Below, piece by piece: positions 1 to 6,247 of a stretch of DNA of 41,620 nt. The position numbers and the translations under genes are program-made. Source of the DNA: Clostridia bacterium (GTDB lineage: Bacteria > Bacillota > Clostridia > Oscillospirales > Acutalibacteraceae); the NCBI GenBank assembly GCA_017475765.1, contig JAFVEY010000067.1, positions 1 through 41,620 on the forward strand, read 5' to 3'. The notes beneath the pieces were generated by a model. That model did no database searches. It was not told where the DNA came from and was given only the letters and a program-made list of their open reading frames with translations. Each line of letters begins with the position of its first letter. Position 1 is the first letter of the stretch.

Positions 1-144
1 TGTGGTGGTAAAGCTGAAATCATCCAATACCCAGCGAACGGCAAAGTGACTGTGAGTTGTGGTGGATGTATGGCGAATATTTCTTTTTGTCCATCAAAGA
101 CAGAAGCTATTGATCGATGGAACAGGAGGACTGACAATGCGTAA
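1..144 (+). CDS. Lar-like zinc-ribbon protein, 3' part only
   Basis: The frame is open from base 1 to a TAA at 142-144 and gives 47 residues. They begin with CGG, have a second CGGC motif near residues 20-23, then a spaced cysteine, and end with an EAIDRWNRR-type tail. This Cys pattern followed by 'A..WNRR' is typical of short phage and prophage proteins annotated as Lar-family restriction alleviation proteins. The N-terminal CPFCGG pair would lie outside the window. The last 8 bases overlap the next gene, whose AGGAGG ribosome-binding site (124-129) lies inside this reading frame. Real anti-restriction activity is not shown by such matches. The family call is from motif recognition only. Confidence 0.6.
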   Translation, partial: CGGKAEIIQYPANGKVTVSCGGCMANISFCPSKTEAIDRWNRRTDNA

Positions 145-382
145 TAGAACAATGAAACGCAGACAATGTTTTGTAAATGCTCATTGCTCATACGATTGTC
201 CAAATTTTCAGATTGATACAATAAATTATCTTTACGGGTATGGAATTTCTGACGATATGGGACTCGAAAAGGTTAGTTGTAAATATTGTCACTATAATTC
301 AGGCAAATGTGATGATTGTTTGTTTCAACACAGTAAAGAATGTCTTGAATATATTTCAAAGAAAGTTGAGGTAGATACATGA
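137..382 (+). CDS. Small Cys-rich protein of unknown function
   Basis: 81 aa. ATG at 137 is chosen because a perfect AGGAGG (124-129) sits 7 bases upstream; a longer reading from base 59 would have no such signal. Nine cysteines occur in clusters: two spaced by six and three residues near the N-terminus (C..C...C at about 11-20), then CKYC, C..C and KEC toward the C-terminus. This suggests one or two zinc sites. I do not recognise a family. Its stop overlaps the start of the next gene (ATGA), so the two are probably translationally coupled. In the inovirus layout it sits in the early/replication block. Confidence 0.75.
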   Translation: MRNRTMKRRQCFVNAHCSYDCPNFQIDTINYLYGYGISDDMGLEKVSCKYCHYNSGKCDDCLFQHSKECLEYISKKVEVDT

Positions 383-624
383 AAGTAAAAATTGTAGGGA
401 AAAAATCAGGTACATTTACAAGTAAAGATACCGGCGAAGTAATATCATTCGGCAAACTGCATTGTATTGGTGCGTTTCCTTTGGACGAAAAAGGAACAGA
501 CGGTGATCAATGTCTTATCATAAGTTGCAATCCCAATGCTTTAAAGGATATCCCTGTTCCGTGTGACGCTGATCTTGATTTCAATCAATGGGGCAGGCTT
601 GCAAGTGTGGAGGTGATTCGTTAA
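379..624 (+). CDS. Candidate phage single-stranded DNA-binding protein
   Basis: 81 aa, start ATG overlapping the upstream TGA. The N-terminal pattern MKVKIVGKKSG-(x)-SKDTGE, then beta-rich segments, fits a small single-domain OB-like fold. Length and position (before the coat gene) match the ssDNA-binding protein of filamentous phages; gene V protein of M13 is 87 aa. Such a protein would coat the single-stranded genome before extrusion. This is inference from size, context and predicted beta content; no diagnostic motif is visible. It could instead be an unrelated small cytoplasmic protein. Confidence 0.5.
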   Translation: MKVKIVGKKSGTFTSKDTGEVISFGKLHCIGAFPLDEKGTDGDQCLIISCNPNALKDIPVPCDADLDFNQWGRLASVEVIR

Positions 625-786
625 ATGGGACTTGGTTTCTTTATCTTCGGTCTGATCGTCGGATTTTTTGTTTCGTTTATTGTTATCAAAAAGCAGATAT
701 CAAAGGATGGAGCGGGTCAGCTGAAAGTCTGCGAGAAATGCCCCTATTTCAGGACGGGCGGAGATGATTTTAATGACAGATTCTGA
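625..786 (+). CDS. Small membrane protein with a CxxC tail
   Basis: 53 aa. ATG follows directly on the upstream TAA; GGAGG at 609-613 serves as ribosome-binding site. Residues 2-21 form one strongly hydrophobic helix (GLGFFIFGLIVGFFVSFIVI) followed by KK, so the N-terminus is probably outside and the tail cytoplasmic. The tail carries CEKC at 36-39, a possible metal or redox pair. It is the size of minor coat or assembly peptides of inoviruses, but there is no sequence match I can name. It overlaps the next gene by 14 bases. Confidence 0.6.
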   Translation: MGLGFFIFGLIVGFFVSFIVIKKQISKDGAGQLKVCEKCPYFRTGGDDFNDRF

Positions 787-910
787 GGTATTAAGTGCGA
801 TACTTAATCGCCTGGATTTGCTTTATGCTCTTCATCTTTTAACATTTTCAATATTGGCGGTAGTGGGTGTTTTATTCATTCTTTATCGCCTGTTGATAAA
901 GTTCTTTTGA
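773..910 (+). CDS. Small membrane protein (possible minor coat protein)
   Basis: 45 aa, ATG at 773 inside the end of the previous gene, with a GGAG-like site about 10 bases upstream. An acidic N-terminus (MTDSEV) leads to an amphipathic stretch and one transmembrane helix (about residues 20-37), then a basic end (YRLLIKFF). This organization is what pVII/pIX-type minor coat proteins look like, and it directly precedes the major-coat-like gene. Function is inferred from size, topology and position only. Confidence 0.6.
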   Translation: MTDSEVLSAILNRLDLLYALHLLTFSILAVVGVLFILYRLLIKFF

Positions 911-924
911 AAGGGGGTTTAATT

Positions 925-1113
925 ATGGGTCCTTCTGTTATGACTGTTGATGCTACTGTCGCAAATTCCTTTACAATCACTTCCGATCTTGTAAAGCCTA
1001 TTGTCGATGCCATTAACAGCGGACTGGATGTGCTTATTCCTGTTGGAATCGGTATTATGTCAACATTCATTGGCATACAGCTTATCCGCAGAGTAATATT
1101 TACATTCCTTTGA
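925..1113 (+). CDS. Major coat protein-like (pVIII analogue)
   Basis: 62 aa. ATG 925 is preceded by GAAAGGGGG (909-917), one of the strongest ribosome-binding sites in the element, which fits a highly expressed structural protein. The N-terminal half is polar and acidic. Residues about 38-55 (LDVLIPVGIGIMSTFIGI) are a transmembrane helix, followed by QLIRR and a short hydrophobic end. Acidic surface, membrane helix and basic DNA-facing end is the inovirus major coat architecture. There is no obvious cleavable signal peptide, unlike M13 pVIII but like several other inoviruses. A terminator follows immediately, as after gene VIII of Ff phages. Confidence 0.72.
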   Translation: MGPSVMTVDATVANSFTITSDLVKPIVDAINSGLDVLIPVGIGIMSTFIGIQLIRRVIFTFL

Positions 1114-1120
1114 TTTTCAA

Positions 1121-1156
1121 TGTCGGTGGTTTATCAAGCCACCGACAATATTTTTT
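1121..1156 (+). terminator. Terminator after the coat gene
   Basis: TGTCGGTGG at 1121-1129 pairs with CCACCGACA at 1139-1147; the stem extends inward by three pairs (one G-U). A T-run (1151-1156) follows. It would limit transcription of the adsorption gene relative to coat protein, as the central terminator of Ff phages does. Confidence 0.85.
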
Positions 1157-1173
1157 GAAAGGAGTTTTTCAAA

Positions 1174-2414
1174 TTGACGGTAATAAATAGAAACTGGGTA
1201 TTGCGTATTACTGCTGTTTTATCTGCATTAGTCATTTCGTTTTTTTCTGTTTTACCTGTTTTTGCAGTTGATTCACAGATAGAAACAAATTATTACGATT
1301 ATACCTCCCCGTCTGCGTTTTCTGATGCAATTATTGCTACCAGGGATCAATTTCCCAATTATTTTCATGATGATTATATCATTTTTAATGTTCATGGTTA
1401 TTGTGGTTGTGACTATGTTGTTCTTTCCGGTGAGATAACGTGCGATTTTTCTAATTCTTTTTGGTTTTATTATCGTGGTCATTTTTCGGTTTTTCATGTG
1501 ACTTATTCCAATGGTTCTTATTCAGTTAGATTATTTGCTAATACGGATAAATTATATACCAGACGTGATGAATTTGATCCATCTTTCGGTATTATTTTTA
1601 ATGAAGATTTAGTTTCTTATAGAATTTTAGATTATACAGCAAGTAATCGTATTTATGATACTAACGGTAATGTAATTTTTGACGCAGATTTTTTTCAAGC
1701 CGCCCGACTAACCCGGAGGAATCTGAAGATGACAGCGGAGGAGCTTCTTCCGATTGGGATTTTGATTCTTTGTTCAATGGTATCGGTTCTGCTCTTGGCT
1801 CGTTGGGCGAAACAATTACAAACGCATTAAATGGTCTTTTAAGTGGTATACAGAATTTTTTCAGAAGTTTTCTTGAAAATTATCAAAGCGGTTTTAATTC
1901 TATTATTGATTTTCTCGGTAATTTTTTCAATGGTCTTGGTTCTGTATTAAGTAATTTTTTTACATCATTTCTTGAAAATTATCAAAGTGGATTGAATAGC
2001 ATAGTTAATTTCTTTTCTGATTTTTGGAATGGAATTTCTAGTTTGTTTGTTCCATCTGATGAATTTTGGGATAGTGATCCTTTCGGTATCATTTCTGTTG
2101 CAATCGAAAATAAATTTGATTTTATCGAGGGTTTCCGTACTGCTTTTGAAGTTTTCAATAATACAAAGGGTCAAACATTGAATTATGAGTTTGATATTCT
2201 CGGTCAGCATTTTGCTATTAATTTTGAATGGTATGAAGCATATCGTTTACAAGTTCGCTCATTATTCGGGACATTGTTTTTAGTTTATGCTGCTTTACGT
2301 TGTTTTAAAATGATCTCCGGTATATTTGGTGTTCAGCTTGGTGAAGGTGGCTCTAGTGGCACAAGTGGTACTTTAAGTGTTGTGGATAATAATAGTTCTA
2401 TCACTCGGAGGTAA
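1174..2414 (+). CDS. Adsorption (pIII-like) protein, expressed by -1 frameshift
   Basis: Start TTG 1174 with AAAGGAG at 1158-1164. Residues 1-31 form a signal peptide ending VFA, followed by an extracellular domain. The starting frame runs to 1830 (218 aa). The frame that holds the rest opens only at 1683 and has no credible start. The two join perfectly if ribosomes slip -1 on T-TTT-TTT at 1689-1695. The product is then 413 aa, close to the length of M13 pIII. After the shift come an acidic Pro/Ser/Gly linker, two 33-residue repeats (about 225-290), a further domain and a C-terminal membrane helix (about 358-384). Position between coat and Zot genes supports host attachment and virion release. 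The unshifted product would end in its own hydrophobic segment (LLPIGILILCSMVSVLLL). An inactivating indel remains possible. Confidence 0.62.
1689..1695 (+). promoter_or_regulatory. -1 frameshift slippery heptamer T TTT TTT
   Basis: Seven T bases are in the correct phase for tandem -1 slippage (GA-T TTT TTT-C in the starting frame). The site lies 6 bases after the downstream frame opens (stop TGA at 1680-1682). A short hairpin (1736-1752) exists but is farther downstream than usual, and no clear upstream SD-like stimulator is seen. Confidence 0.5.
1845..2042 (+). repeat. Two tandem 99-bp (33-codon) repeats in the adsorption gene
   Basis: Units 1845-1943 and 1944-2042 each encode NFF-x-SFLENYQSG-x-NSI followed by a Phe/Asn/Gly-rich stretch. 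A 20-base block at 1869-1888 recurs exactly at 1968-1987. Recent duplication or strong selection on the helix-forming repeat would explain the identity at DNA level. Confidence 0.9.
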
Positions 2415-2417
2415 GTT

Positions 2418-2651
2418 ATGATTACTGAAGCTATAATACAATTTATTATCAATGGATTTTATCATTTGATAAGCCTTTTCCCTTCATTTACTGTTGGTGC
2501 TGATTTACTCTCGGCATTTTCTCAACTTGCTGCTTGGGCTGCTTGGGTGAATTATTATGTACCTCTGGAGGATTTTTGCACCGGATTGTCTGCAATTTTT
2601 GATACATGGATTGTGTCTTGTGTGGTCGGTGTTTGTATTGAATTATTTTAA
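2418..2651 (+). CDS. Hydrophobic minor coat-like protein (pVI position)
   Basis: 77 aa, ATG 2418 with CGGAGG (2405-2410) lying in the last codons of the previous gene, so translation is coupled. Three hydrophobic segments are visible: residues 4-20, about 29-48 and 56-77. There is no signal peptide. In filamentous phages the gene after the adsorption gene encodes pVI, a small hydrophobic cap protein that joins pIII to the virion. Size, hydrophobicity and position agree, but the sequence itself gives no family signature. Confidence 0.6.
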   Translation: MITEAIIQFIINGFYHLISLFPSFTVGADLLSAFSQLAAWAAWVNYYVPLEDFCTGLSAIFDTWIVSCVVGVCIELF

Positions 2652-2667
2652 ATTGAGGATGGTTTTT

Positions 2668-3447
2668 ATGGTACAGATTTTATTGAAAATTGGTTTAATC
2701 GTTTTCATCGGATGGTGTTTTTTTGCCCGCCGTTTTTTGCTCTCTCTTCCCTCTCTAATTTATTGGTGGATAATGGATATTGTTCATTATGATAAAAATC
2801 TTTTTCGGGAATATGGTCTAAGGCTTTACTGTGGAAAACAAGGTTCAGGCAAATCAATTGGTATTGTCTATGATTTGGAACGCTTTCGTCGCAGATATCC
2901 CAAATGTAAGATATACACTAATTTCGGTTATCGGGCTCAGACTGCTCCCCTTAACAGTCTTAATGATTTACTGGATTCTTCAAAGTTGAATGGTACAGAT
3001 GGTGTTATATTTGCCATTGATGAAATTCAGAATGAGTTTTCTTCGGCTGCTTCTAAAGATTTTCCTGAAAGTCTGCTTTCGCAGATTACCCAGCAGCGTA
3101 AACAACGGATTTGTATTCTTGCTTCGTCTCAGGTCTTTACACGTATTGCAAAACCATTGCGTGAACAGTCTTTTATTGTTGTGGATTGTAAGACCGTTTT
3201 CGGACGATATACGAAGTTAAGATATATATCTGCTGATGATTATCTCGAATATGCAGAGAATCCTAATCCAAAAAAGCGATTGAAGCTTCGCCCGATGAAG
3301 ATTATCACCTTTGTGCAGACAAATGCACTCAGAAACTGTTATAACAGCTATGAGTTAATCAGACGATTAAGCCGTGAAGGTTTCTGTGAGCGTAAGCCTG
3401 ATACAAATATTAACGTAAATAATGTAACTGTTGTCAGACATAAGTAA
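2668..3447 (+). CDS. zot: Zot/pI-type assembly ATPase
   Basis: 259 aa. ATG 2668 is chosen for the GAGG at 2655-2658. Residues about 3-37 are hydrophobic (one or two membrane segments) and are followed by a P-loop ATPase: Walker A GKQGSGKS at 56-63 and Walker B IFAIDEI at 114-120. ITQQRKQ and ASSQVF downstream resemble the sensor region of zonular-occludens-toxin/gene I proteins. In inoviruses this inner-membrane motor drives virion assembly and extrusion. Here the membrane anchor is N-terminal and no helix follows the ATPase, opposite to M13 pI; this suits a Gram-positive host without an outer membrane. No gene IV secretin is present, also as expected. The family call is secure from motifs plus context. 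Confidence 0.9.
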   Translation: MVQILLKIGLIVFIGWCFFARRFLLSLPSLIYWWIMDIVHYDKNLFREYGLRLYCGKQGSGKSIGIVYDLERFRRRYPKCKIYTNFGYRAQTAPLNSLNDLLDSSKLNGTDGVIFAIDEIQNEFSSAASKDFPESLLSQITQQRKQRICILASSQVFTRIAKPLREQSFIVVDCKTVFGRYTKLRYISADDYLEYAENPNPKKRLKLRPMKIITFVQTNALRNCYNSYELIRRLSREGFCERKPDTNINVNNVTVVRHK

Positions 3448-3482
3448 AATATTACTCGCTTGCAAAGCAAGCGAGTAATATT
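3448..3482 (+). other. 16-bp perfect inverted repeat, possible packaging signal
   Basis: AATATTACTCGCTTGC (3448-3463) pairs perfectly with 3467-3482 across a 3-base AAA loop. No T-run follows on the + strand, so it is a poor + strand terminator. An ultra-stable hairpin in the intergenic region next to the origin is where filamentous phages keep the packaging signal. It might also block read-through from zot into rep. Confidence 0.6.
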
Positions 3483-3504
3483 ACATGGCTGATAATGTTA
3501 CATT

Positions 3505-3555
3505 AGTATCGTCAATAGTATAGGTTCGGGCGAAGCCGCCTTAACTTGATACTAT
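3505..3555 (+). other. Candidate double-strand origin with pC194-type nick sequence
   Basis: CTTGATA at 3545-3551 equals the core nick sequence of pC194/pUB110-family rolling-circle plasmids, which are cut between G and A (here 3548/3549). It lies in inverted repeats: AGTATC (3505-3510) with GATACT (3548-3553), and ATAGTAT (3515-3521) with ATACTAT (3549-3555). A GC-rich stem-forming core (3523-3540) lies between them. A Rep_1 gene starts 120 bases downstream. Confidence 0.62.
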
Positions 3556-3669
3556 ATAGAAATAACTCAAGGATTGCAATTTTGCAAAATGGCTTGAATA
3601 CTGGGATAATTTGTTATTATCAAAATTTGTTAATACTTTATTCATAATTTGAATAGTGGGGTGTTACCC

Positions 3670-4758
3670 ATGGAAAAGTTACTATTGTGTCAAAATGAAA
3701 TTGACAGGAAGTTTACACCAAAGAAAATACAGTCTGAGAAACTTGTTGATTCTTTGGTTCGTTTGGAGATGTTTAAAAAGGCTTCAAGAGTCGCTGATTG
3801 TGCAAGCGTGGTTGAATATCATCAGTATGATGGTGTTGAAAAGCCCGTTTTATCCAATGTTTGGTTTTGTAAGAATAGGCTTTGCCCTCTCTGCTCATGG
3901 CGCAGATCTATGAAGCTGTACGGACAGCTTTCAAAGATAATGGATAATCTTTCAGGTAATTTTCGATTTATATTTGTTACGCTGACTATTAAAAACTGTA
4001 AAGCTGAGGATTTGGCAAGTACTGTTAAATTGCTTAATCAATCATTTAATCGTCTTAAGACTTATAAATATATGCAGTTTGTCAAAGGTTTTTTTAAGGC
4101 TTTGGAAATAACACATGACAATTATGAGTATATCAGTAAAAAAATGTGGTATGGAGACAAGAAAAAGCATATCAAGGCACGTGGCAGATATTATTCCCGG
4201 TTAGGTCTTAAAATTGGAGACCGTAATCCGAATTTTGATATGTATCATCCGCATTTACATATTATCTTTGCAGTTGATGAGGAATATTTTTCTTCTCCTT
4301 ATCTTACTCAGGATAGGTTGTGCCAGCTGTGGCAGAAGGCTCTTAAAGTTGACTATAAGCCTGTGTGTGATATCAGAACGGTTAAACCTCAAAAGGATAA
4401 AGCCGGAGACGGTATCGGTTATAAGGCTGCTGTCTGCGAGGTTGGCAAATATAGTGTTAAAGATACTGATTATCTGACAGGCAGCTATAAGCAGATAGAT
4501 AAGACTGTCAGCACATTGCTTGACGCTCTTCATCATGTCAGGCTTTGCAGTTTCGGCGGTGTATTTGAGGATGTTCGGAAAATGCTCGGTATCTTGGAAG
4601 ATGATCCGATTGACGGCGATTTACTACATATCAATGATGATACTATCCGTGAAGATGTAAGTTATATGATTATCCGTTATAAATGGGCTGTCGGATTTTA
4701 CGAACGCACTATTACAGAACATATTAATATTGATATTGAGGTTGATGATGATGAATAA
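3670..4758 (+). CDS. rep: Rolling-circle replication initiator, Rep_1 family
   Basis: 362 aa. ATG 3670 is preceded by GTGGGGTG (3656-3663); an upstream TTG at 3649 is less likely. Motifs follow the pC194/pUB110 Rep_1 family: zinc-like CKNRLCPLC (67-75), IFVTLTIKNC (101-110), FFKALEITHD, the metal-binding HPHLH (193-197), and EVGKYSVKDTDYL with the likely nicking tyrosine at 261. An extra segment of about 40 basic residues (151-191) separates the EITHD and HPHLH motifs. The enzyme would nick one strand at CTTGATA and start plus-strand synthesis. Ff phages use a different initiator (pII), so replication here is plasmid-type. Family assignment is secure; the target site is inferred. Confidence 0.93.
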   Translation: MEKLLLCQNEIDRKFTPKKIQSEKLVDSLVRLEMFKKASRVADCASVVEYHQYDGVEKPVLSNVWFCKNRLCPLCSWRRSMKLYGQLSKIMDNLSGNFRFIFVTLTIKNCKAEDLASTVKLLNQSFNRLKTYKYMQFVKGFFKALEITHDNYEYISKKMWYGDKKKHIKARGRYYSRLGLKIGDRNPNFDMYHPHLHIIFAVDEEYFSSPYLTQDRLCQLWQKALKVDYKPVCDIRTVKPQKDKAGDGIGYKAAVCEVGKYSVKDTDYLTGSYKQIDKTVSTLLDALHHVRLCSFGGVFEDVRKMLGILEDDPIDGDLLHINDDTIREDVSYMIIRYKWAVGFYERTITEHINIDIEVDDDE

Positions 4759-4966
4759 TGCAGAATTGTTTAAGATTATGATTTTAGAATGGATGTTAAA
4801 TACTTCTGATCATTTGGATAATGAATATTTAACTGTTGTGAATCGTGTAACACTCAATCATTTAACTGCTTCGGATTATTATGACCTTCTTGTCACGGAA
4901 ACCCGGCAGGATTATGCCCGACATATTTTTAGACAAATTCGGCAGCTTATGGATACTTATCTTTGA
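4748..4966 (+). CDS. Small helical protein of unknown function
   Basis: About 71-73 aa. Three in-frame ATGs (4745, 4748, 4751) follow GAGG at 4738-4741; 4748 or 4751 give normal spacing. The start overlaps the end of rep, so translation is probably coupled. The sequence is acidic then basic, mostly helix-forming (YYDLLVTETRQDYARHIFRQIRQL), with no cysteines or membrane segment. It could be a replication or copy-control partner of Rep. I do not recognise a family. Confidence 0.65.
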   Translation: MMNNAELFKIMILEWMLNTSDHLDNEYLTVVNRVTLNHLTASDYYDLLVTETRQDYARHIFRQIRQLMDTYL

Positions 4967-4970
4967 ATCC

Positions 4971-5006
4971 AGTCCCCTACCCATCGTAGGGGACTTTGTG
5001 CATTTT
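4971..5006 (+). terminator. Terminator at the end of the prophage genes
   Basis: AGTCCCCTAC (4971-4980) pairs perfectly with GTAGGGGACT (4986-4995), loop CCATC, followed by TTGTGCATTTT. It closes the rep transcript. Confidence 0.85.
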
Positions 5007-5022
5007 GTACATTATGATTCAA
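4995..5022 (+). other. dif-like 28-mer, candidate prophage attachment site
   Basis: TTTGTGCATTT-TGTACA-TTATGATTCAA has the 11-6-11 architecture of Xer sites. It agrees with E. coli dif at 18 of 28 positions by eye, including TTATG of the XerD arm, GCAT of the XerC arm and most of the central hexamer. It lies exactly between the last phage terminator and a Xer-type recombinase gene. Many filamentous phages integrate at dif with host Xer proteins. The second copy would be left of the window. Confidence 0.4.
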
Positions 5023-5114
5023 AGGCTCTGTTTTGGGACATTGAGTGGATTAAAAACAAGAAATCCTAAAATCCAGTATTTCATTTTGAGAGTAAAAGCA
5101 ATTTATATATTTTG

Positions 5115-6080
5115 CTATATGTTTGCCAACGGATTCGCATTGAGTCCCTTCTCGATCTGTTCATCTGCAATATGAGTGTAGATCTGAGTCGTACCAAGAT
5201 TGGAATGTCCGAGAATCGCCTGTAAAGTTCTGATGTCTACCCCGCCCTTCTGGTACATCAGCGTTGCAGCTGTATGTCGAAGTTTGTGTGGTGAATAACC
5301 CTGATTGCCAAGCCCGATCTTTTCAAGGTAATGATTAACCATGTGATAAACACCTTTGTTAGTCATACGACACCTCTTTCTGCTGATAAAAAGAGCGTTT
5401 TTATCGGTGATGGCATTTGTTGGTCTTACTTTCAGATATTCTTTCAGAGCATTGACACAAGCGGGATTCAGAGTAAGCATTCTCTCTTTATTTCCCTTTC
5501 CTCTGATCTTCAAAGTGTATTCACTATTGATATCGGAAAGGTTGATTCCCACCAGTTCCGAAAGTCTGAGTCCGCAGTTCAGGAAAAATATTAGAATACA
5601 ATAATCTCTTTCTTTAAATTCACCATCTACTGCTTTGAGCAAATTCAAACTTTCTTCCAGCGTAAGATATTTTGGTAATCTTTTTCCTTTTTTAGGTGCC
5701 TCAAGCTCCTCAGTAGGGTTATGTGACAACTTATGCACCTTAATAGTAAGATAATTAAAAAAATCCTTTAAACTGGATGTTTTGCGTGCTCTGGTAGCGG
5801 CTGTATTATTTCTTTCATCTTTACAATAATTCAGAAATAAAATAATTTCAGAAAAGGTAACAGACTCAATCATTGCAAGATCTACTGAAGAAATATCTAT
5901 ATCATCCACCGGTATATCGTCCTTGACAAGTCCTCTGTCCTTAATGAGAAAACGAAAGAATGTCCTTAAATCACGATAGTATTCATCTACTGTTAAATCA
6001 GATCTACCTTTAACATTTCCAATATAATTCAGAAACTCCAGAATGACAGGCGGTGCTTCTTTAAAGATTGTGTAGCTCAA
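5115..6080 (-). CDS. Xer-type tyrosine recombinase
   Basis: 321 aa. Start TTG (6078-6080) with AGGGAGGT at 6088-6095, seven bases away; no ATG fits. An N-terminal SAM-like core-binding domain (about 10-125) is followed by the catalytic domain. R is seen in NCGLRLSEL, K in RGKGNKER, H-x-x-R in SPHKLRHTAATL, H/W in LGHSNLGTTQ, and the nucleophile Y in IYTHI. The close match to chromosomal XerC/D proteins of Clostridia and the conserved ANPLA tail suggest a host gene for chromosome dimer resolution rather than a phage integrase. Position next to a dif-like site and a prophage border fits either role. It transcribes toward the prophage. Confidence 0.85.
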   Translation of the reverse strand: MSYTIFKEAPPVILEFLNYIGNVKGRSDLTVDEYYRDLRTFFRFLIKDRGLVKDDIPVDDIDISSVDLAMIESVTFSEIILFLNYCKDERNNTAATRARKTSSLKDFFNYLTIKVHKLSHNPTEELEAPKKGKRLPKYLTLEESLNLLKAVDGEFKERDYCILIFFLNCGLRLSELVGINLSDINSEYTLKIRGKGNKERMLTLNPACVNALKEYLKVRPTNAITDKNALFISRKRCRMTNKGVYHMVNHYLEKIGLGNQGYSPHKLRHTAATLMYQKGGVDIRTLQAILGHSNLGTTQIYTHIADEQIEKGLNANPLANI

Positions 6081-6247
6081 TTATTATACCTCCCTACGAT
6101 TTTCAGGATTTATTTATTATATTATATCATTACCGATAAACAAAGTCAAAGAAACCAATTCTATATTTTTGCAATATCGAATAAGAAATAATCTGTCATC
6201 TAAAATATACAGCATGGATCCACATCCAATTCAAATTTCATATTGTT

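Follow-up and report, generated by a model that had tools for sequence, protein, structure and literature searches.

The question raised by this locus is how a gene resembling the adsorption gene of a filamentous phage could be expressed when it lies in two overlapping reading frames. The window, by which we mean the whole analysed stretch of 41,620 nucleotides from a Clostridia bacterium, carries an inovirus prophage at positions 1-6080, beginning at the left end of the contig, as judged from the list of open reading frames (ORFs) and Pfam matches. Small membrane ORFs also lie within the prophage, together with the following features:

925..1113, plus strand: putative major coat protein, small, with a hydrophobic helix LIPVGIGIMSTFIGIQLIRRVIFTFL; the ORF just before the adsorption gene, as in relatives
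1174..1830, plus strand: zero-frame ORF, the predicted short form of 218 amino acids, with signal sequence, N-domain and coat-like tail
1683..2414, plus strand: -1 frame, with the acidic Pro/Ser/Gly linker, amphipathic repeats and C-terminal anchor of the predicted long form; the regions correspond in relatives
1689..1695, plus strand: slippery heptamer T TTT TTT in the zero-frame register
1696..1827, plus strand: zero-frame tail of the short form, coat-like LLPIGILILCSMVSVLLLAR
1703..1758, plus strand: possible 3' stem-loop stimulator, 7 nt past the heptamer
1729..1827, plus strand: the 33-amino-acid tail alone, from a possible internal start (ATG, GGAGG 9 nt upstream)
2418..2651, plus strand: pVI-like small membrane protein between the adsorption gene and pI, as in relatives; named by position
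2668..3447, plus strand: pI, Zot-like assembly ATPase (Zot in Pfam, E 0.011, below the Pfam cut-off)
3670..4758, plus strand: replication initiator Rep_1 (Pfam PF01446, E 5.5e-64)
5115..6080, minus strand: tyrosine integrase (Pfam PF00589, E 2.3e-38)

Organization of the adsorption gene

The ORF at 925..1113 gave a weak PHROG match (phrog_18198, function unknown there, E 3.2e-4), and its size, position and motif suggest the major coat protein. The pVI-like ORF had no match in Pfam or PHROG, and the pI protein had eight relatives at 38-57% identity. The first ORF of the adsorption gene begins at a TTG with AGGAG 9 nt upstream, and its product starts with a hydrophobic signal. A TGA at 1680 precedes the open stretch of the -1 frame, and the two frames overlap by 145 nt; the coordinates that the initial annotation had given for both (1174-1830 and 1683-2414) were right. 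At the run of seven T the zero frame reads GCA GAT TTT TTT CAA, which places T TTT TTT in the canonical register. The heptamer stands 6 nt past the opening of the -1 frame, and the last base of the zero-frame stop codon lies 135 nt further on. With the heptamer in this register a -1 slip at 1689-1695 joins the frames as had been proposed, and the proposed length of 413 amino acids for the joined protein agrees with 174 zero-frame codons to 1695 followed by 239 codons of the -1 frame. The -1 frame had also been said to have no plausible start, and the 67 codons that follow the slip were found to hold only TTG at 1770 and 1803, each with a Shine-Dalgarno match of at most 3 nt.

Read across the two frames, the gene has the layout of pIII, with signal sequence, N-domain, linker and C-terminal anchor, and its position between the coat gene and the pVI-like and pI genes is pIII-like as well. 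No sequence match to pIII was found for either half in Pfam, PHROGs or PDB sequences. The matches that the halves did give in Pfam and PHROGs (tape-measure, Baculo_PEP_C and other weak ones) were judged to reflect low complexity, and a search of PDB sequences with the B-frame profile A2 returned weak matches only, e.g. to designed helical bundles. Positions 1770-2050 encode long amphipathic repeats (FLENYQSG.N..), which match tape-measure-like PHROGs with E values down to 1.6e-8, probably via low complexity. An AlphaFold model of the short form from the window was of low confidence (mean pLDDT 56.2); it shows strands in the region from 68 to 122 and a C-terminal helix over 188-217.

Spread of the two-frame layout and its slip sites

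Viral contigs searched with each half of the window gene, and also with the B-frame profile A2, yielded no relatives, so pI was used as an anchor for finding them. The pI loci numbered 33 in viral contigs and 28 in genome contigs; six of 300 genomes of the family had a match, and 391 genomes of the class gave 10 matches, the own genome included in each case. A B-frame profile search of 292 genomes from the family of one relative gave 12 matches, five of them already known. Loci L001-L098 and positions 1-6200 of the window were scanned automatically on both strands for overlapping frames of which the first ends hydrophobic. The scan returned 18 pairs in the -1 sense, 13 of which were the adsorption gene, and three pairs in the +1 sense, none of which was. 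The other five -1 pairs join other ORFs (in L018, L046, L051 and twice in L067); in that of L046 the first frame is a coat-like ORF, and the second has an end resembling that of an adsorption protein. Loci L038, L039, L083 and L098, which the filters of the scan had missed, were added by eye. Duplicates were removed (L001, L002 and L070 are the window; L003 and L008 are L017; L071 is L082; L086 is L038; L034 is L083), as were re-fetched stretches such as L080, L081, L084, L085 and L087; L090, with a T-run out of register, and L027, which is single-frame, were kept outside the set. This left the -1 layout in 17 distinct phage loci, the window included, and all shifts were -1. The closest two-frame phage (L003/L017), in a genome of the same family, has a pI 59% identical to that of the window and shares the layout, its in-register heptamer being C CCT TTA in place of the seven T. 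Two tandem inovirus copies were seen in one contig for L017 (G012/G300; 5,450 bases apart) and for L026 (about 6,055 bases apart); the two tandem-copy stretches fetched from G012 are identical over 3,693 bases.

The layout could also have arisen from an ordinary single-frame pIII gene by a frameshift mutation, decay or an assembly error in the T-run, and the initial annotation had named uninterrupted homologues as the observation that would point to this. Such homologues were found: among 62 pI loci, in which L012, a near-copy of L011, is included, 12 were two-frame, 34 had a single ORF of at least 280 amino acids upstream of pI, and 16 were neither, the last group including short contigs, other gene orders and L034 (same sequence as L083). 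However, most of the single-frame loci sit elsewhere on the pI tree than the two-frame loci. In keeping with mutation or error, many of the relatives are metagenome assemblies, the T-run of L090 (minus strand, around 1505) is out of register so that its N-domain frame enters neither following frame, which suggests that T-runs at such sites can drift, and several two-frame genes have a further frame break. In five loci (L026, L039, L041, L083 and L038) the break lies downstream, at differing places, and in L088 the signal part is in another frame, upstream of the site. The genes with extra breaks may be decayed or misassembled; breaks in the repeat-rich long part are equally compatible with gene decay, misassembly of the repeats or additional recoding. 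Against these points, the 17 loci agree in the -1 direction and have similar overlaps, although their slip sequences are of five kinds; one of them, L032, belongs to a complete chromosome and lacks a T-run at its site; and in the set the end of the zero frame appears to be under selection, as described below. A local mutation or error was rejected given the recurrence of the layout in 17 loci, and we regard this explanation as highly unlikely. On a pI tree of 40 proteins, in which long branches such as that of L088 make some placements unsure, the 12 of the 17 two-frame loci that are present need five changes, and well-supported branches force five, so that the layout was gained or lost repeatedly or was exchanged as a module.

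An independent start of the -1 frame was rejected as well. In 13 of the 17 loci the 67 codons that follow the slip held no start codon (the -1 frames of L038 and L083 being only 60 and 64 codons long), and in the other four the starts that exist have a Shine-Dalgarno match of at most 3 nt. Lacking a usable start, the -1 frame has frameshifting as the only evident way to be expressed. The third frame has 4-15 stops over the same stretch in each of the 17 loci.

The initial annotation had asked whether the run of seven T and the two-frame layout are conserved among homologous prophages. The layout is; the run is present in only eight of the 17 loci (the window, L033, L038, L041, L044, L088, L089 and L098). 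Six loci have GGTTTTT (L024, L026, L029, L030, L082 and L083), and one locus each has CCCTTTA (L017), CCCGGGG (L032, where it occurs twice in the same gene) and seven A (L039). The heptamer starts at most 18 nt past the opening of the -1 frame in 16 of the loci and at 57 nt in L039. In-phase canonical heptamers occur in these genes at a background of 0.0186 per codon (93 of 4991 codons), and the chance of one within 7 codons of a given point is about 0.12 for a single gene; it is the recurrence over 17 loci that takes the slip site beyond chance. Canonical heptamers stand at the site in 10 of the 17 loci (P 7e-6), and a site heptamer is found in 16 (P 5e-14) with GGTTTTT counted, a slip type admitted only after it had been seen and, like the A7 site, assigned by eye; the 17 loci are related, and P values combined over them are optimistic. 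G_GUU_UUU is described as the -1 shift site of a cardiovirus in the abstract of PMC4524249. It is the same heptamer as in these six loci, not that of the window, and the shift sequence is all that is in common, the cardiovirus being a eukaryotic RNA virus with protein-directed stimulation.

Runs of 7 to 9 T, or of 7 A, are present in nine of the 17 loci, among them the window, and could let transcriptional slippage, rather than ribosomal frameshifting, make the long form; slippage of this kind is a known alternative in insertion sequences, according to a passage of a recoding review (PMC5009743). In the other eight loci, however, the shift lies at at most five T (GGTTTTT, six loci) or at no such run (CCCTTTA and CCCGGGG, one each), and in part of the loci a stem-loop follows at ribosomal spacing. 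Transcriptional slippage was rejected as the common mechanism, a long homopolymer not being present in all members, and is very improbable as the source of the long form. The same eight loci, which shift without a run of seven or more equal bases, speak against a phase-variable switch as the common mechanism, one of the two roles that had been suggested for the T-run. The other role, programmed frameshifting that sets the ratio of a short to a long attachment protein, is strongly supported by relatives that keep the two frames while the slip sequence changes and by a second frame without a start.

Stimulators of -1 frameshifting include 3' structures about 5-9 nt past the slip site, as stated in PMC5009743, and the spacer between heptamer and stem-loop was 4-9 nt over our loci. 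The best hairpin near the expected spacing (up to 55 nt) was compared with 65 control windows from the same gene, and beat all of them in nine of the 17 loci; four of the 65 control windows were as stable in the window locus, 17 in L030 and 31 in L032. In a second comparison the controls were 60 shuffles with the -1 protein and its codon usage unchanged. No more than one shuffle was as stable in nine loci (L017, L033, L039, L041, L044, L082, L083, L088 and L089), and Fisher's P for all 17 loci combined was 4e-7. In these shuffles the stem-loop was not significant singly in eight loci (the window, L024, L026, L029, L030, L032, L038 and L098); the window hairpin at 1703..1758 has -14.4 kcal/mol, and 10 of 60 shuffles were equally stable. 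In an alignment by eye of four GGTTTTT loci, L030 keeps the stem with one T-A to C-G change and loses the outer pair. Rfam gave no match at the shift site.

The zero-frame tail and the coat protein

Over the set, the end of the zero frame is itself conserved and coat-like and very probably a real product, which the initial annotation had missed. Its hydrophobic character has to be judged with care, as the T-ending codons of the -1 frame alone make the zero frame hydrophobic, and synonymous shuffles were therefore used as the null. Shuffled means of hydrophobicity were 1.5-2.7 and observed values 2.3-3.0, with L088 below its own null. Over the set, openness and hydrophobicity of the zero frame exceeded the shuffles (Fisher 2e-9 and 5e-5, from loci that are not independent). 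For the window alone neither openness (P 0.27) nor hydrophobicity (P 0.41) was significant against synonymous shuffles. In an ungapped test the zero-frame peptides were more alike than the -1 proteins would lead one to expect (136 pairs, mean z 3.3; the 98 pairs with less than 35% identity in the -1 frame, mean z 2.4), and the pair L041/L089 is 43% identical in the zero frame versus 23% in the -1 frame. No pair that involves the window was significant in this test; when gaps were allowed, the window tail was similar at P<0.05 to three of the 16 tails of its relatives (L032, L033 and L088).

The tail shares with the inovirus major coat protein a hydrophobic helix with an LIPxG-like motif. Against the coat protein of its own phage the window tail scored 42, compared with 25.4 for the synonymous null (P 0.010) and with 34 for the best of six other hydrophobic ORFs of the same phage. 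The coat comparison could be made in 15 of the 17 loci, as no coat gene was found in L041 and L083. In all 15 the own coat scored above all the other hydrophobic ORFs that were compared within that phage (mean 51 versus 27 for 52 control ORFs), with narrow margins in L024 (47 versus 46) and L032 (51 versus 49 for another ORF), and in 14 the score exceeded the synonymous shuffles at P<0.05. The related loci L088 and L098 have a different coat type, and their tails follow that type (66 versus 33). The own coat was the best of the 15 coats for only two of 15 tails and ranked 13th for the window, most coats being alike, so the likeness is to the coat type and not to the individual coat. In an AlphaFold model of the L024 short form (overall mean pLDDT 58.5) residues 165-201 form a C-terminal helix with pLDDT of about 70-93.

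These results bear on the view that the zero-frame tail is a non-functional by-product, that only the long form matters and that frameshifting merely lowers its amount. The codon bias of the -1 frame already gives a hydrophobic read-out, above which the window alone does not rise, as this view would have it; but over the set the openness and conservation of the zero frame are in excess, the tail is like a coat, and L091 has a separate gene for an N-domain with a membrane tail beside a single-frame long protein (loci L018-L020 are similar, with a homology that profiles left unproven). The tail as a mere by-product was rejected for its set-wide conservation and coat likeness, and we consider this view unlikely. 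Over the set of loci, the pattern of conservation indicates that the zero-frame tail is selected in its own right.

A product of its own could come from an internal start instead. The window has an ATG at 1729 with GGAGG 9 nt upstream, which would give the tail, also or only, as a coat-like protein of 33 amino acids, the size of pVII or pIX, and L027, whose long form is single-frame, has preserved the tail frame together with an ATG. However, a Shine-Dalgarno match of at least 5 nt before a zero-frame internal start is present in just four of the 17 loci (the window, L017, L088 and L089), and the tail frame is continuous with the signal-bearing N-domain in 16, the exception being L088. Manufacture of the tail from an internal start thus seems rather improbable as an explanation of the layout; a start at 1729 is possible as an addition to the frameshift model. 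L027 stands near the largest two-frame group on the pI tree and encodes the long form in one frame without a slip site; of 1000 shuffles, 56 were as open as its coat-like frame and none was as similar to the other tails.

Other inoviruses have related arrangements. L091 (minus strand) has a single-frame long adsorption protein at 898-2034 and, downstream at 2294-2968, a gene of its own for a protein with a signal and a membrane tail, which resembles a stand-alone short form. The Lacrimispora/Hungatella prophages L018, L019 and L020 have a separate membrane-tailed gene before pIII (about 4158-4855), which is broken by a stop in L019; in L020 the pIII gene that comes next is broken. The search with pI led to 19 deposited inovirus records, of which eight were fetched and seven read for frames (L103 as an annotation table only), and all seven have a membrane-tailed ORF, about 190-220 amino acids long in six and 87 in one, followed by a long gene. 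A profile comparison of the N-domains with the stand-alone small proteins of deposited inoviruses gave no match, and the N-domain profile aligned with the Lacrimispora/Hungatella protein at a probability of 2.5%, over one 25-residue stretch. The long adsorption gene of the porcine inovirus MT135308 (L104, minus strand, 2386-3490) is split in the +1 sense and that of its relative L099 is in one frame. L009 and L010 have an adsorption-like gene downstream of pI, and the L009 copy (4085-5348) is in two pieces.

Predicted forms and known recoding systems

Taken together, the layout, the slip site, the coat-like tail and the selection on both frames, which emerge from comparison of the loci as a set, make it very probable that two forms of the adsorption protein are produced by programmed -1 frameshifting. 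Ribosomes that stay in frame would finish a short protein with the signal sequence, an N-terminal domain that presumably binds the receptor, and the coat-like tail. A slip of one base backwards at T TTT TTT would instead lead to a long pIII-like protein, in which the same N-domain is followed by the linker, the amphipathic repeats and the C-terminal anchor, and the share of ribosomes that shift would fix the ratio of the forms. The two forms would be two ways to mount one N-domain. The long form would sit at the tip as pIII, and the short form would be anchored through its coat-like helix, in the membrane and possibly also between coat subunits. We infer the ribosomal shift, the ratio of the forms and the final place of each from the comparison, and receptor binding by the N-domain, the identity of the long form with pIII and the presence of the short form in the virion from position and likeness. 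Where the short form ends up is less certain than the production of two forms by frameshifting. That the filament takes up the short form as one of its coat subunits, with frameshifting setting the number of N-domains on coat-type anchors against those at the pIII tip, is a tentative proposal to which we give somewhat less than an even chance.

The pIII protein of the Ff phages has a signal sequence, an N-domain, a linker and a C-terminal anchor, is encoded in a single frame and lies near the coat and assembly genes. Domain order and gene neighbourhood are alike, whereas the gene described here has two frames and no sequence match to pIII in Pfam, PHROGs or PDB. The two-gene inoviruses mentioned above (Inovirus sp. 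of porcine origin, bajarodino viruses, and the Lacrimispora/Hungatella prophages) also place a membrane-tailed ORF before a long adsorption gene. They have two genes in place of one, however, and their small protein can be likened to the short form by arrangement alone.

Tailed phages offer well-known cases of frameshifting in structural genes. In T3/T7 gp10 and in Lactobacillus phage A2 it leads to two forms of the major capsid protein, as PMC5009743 describes, and these resemble the present case in that two forms of one structural protein share an N-terminus. In those tailed phages ribosomes that stay in frame make the abundant coat and the shift extends it, whereas here an adsorption gene of a filamentous phage is concerned and the shift replaces a coat-like tail with a pIII-like anchor. 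The review also describes gpG/gpGT of lambda, with a -1 frameshift near the 3' end of the gene that is common among tailed phages; the shift near the 3' end into an overlapping frame is similar here, but gpG and gpGT are tail chaperones absent from the virion, and the present product is presumed to be a secreted, membrane-anchored adsorption protein. In searches of an open-licence library we found no report of frameshifting in filamentous phages or inoviruses, and likewise nothing on frameshifting in receptor-binding proteins or on the adsorption protein of Firmicutes inoviruses. The accessible text of the recoding review (PMC5009743) uses the word filamentous once, for display libraries, and the words frameshift and adsorption are absent from the main text of a study of Enterocloster inoviruses (PMC10061712).

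If the frameshift model is right, the attachment proteins of such inoviruses would be prone to mis-annotation, because a gene caller would give two ORFs, one of them without a true start. The phage would also give one binding domain two anchors, one of which is like its coat. Were the short form indeed to be part of the filament, this would be a natural phage display in which the ratio is controlled at translation.
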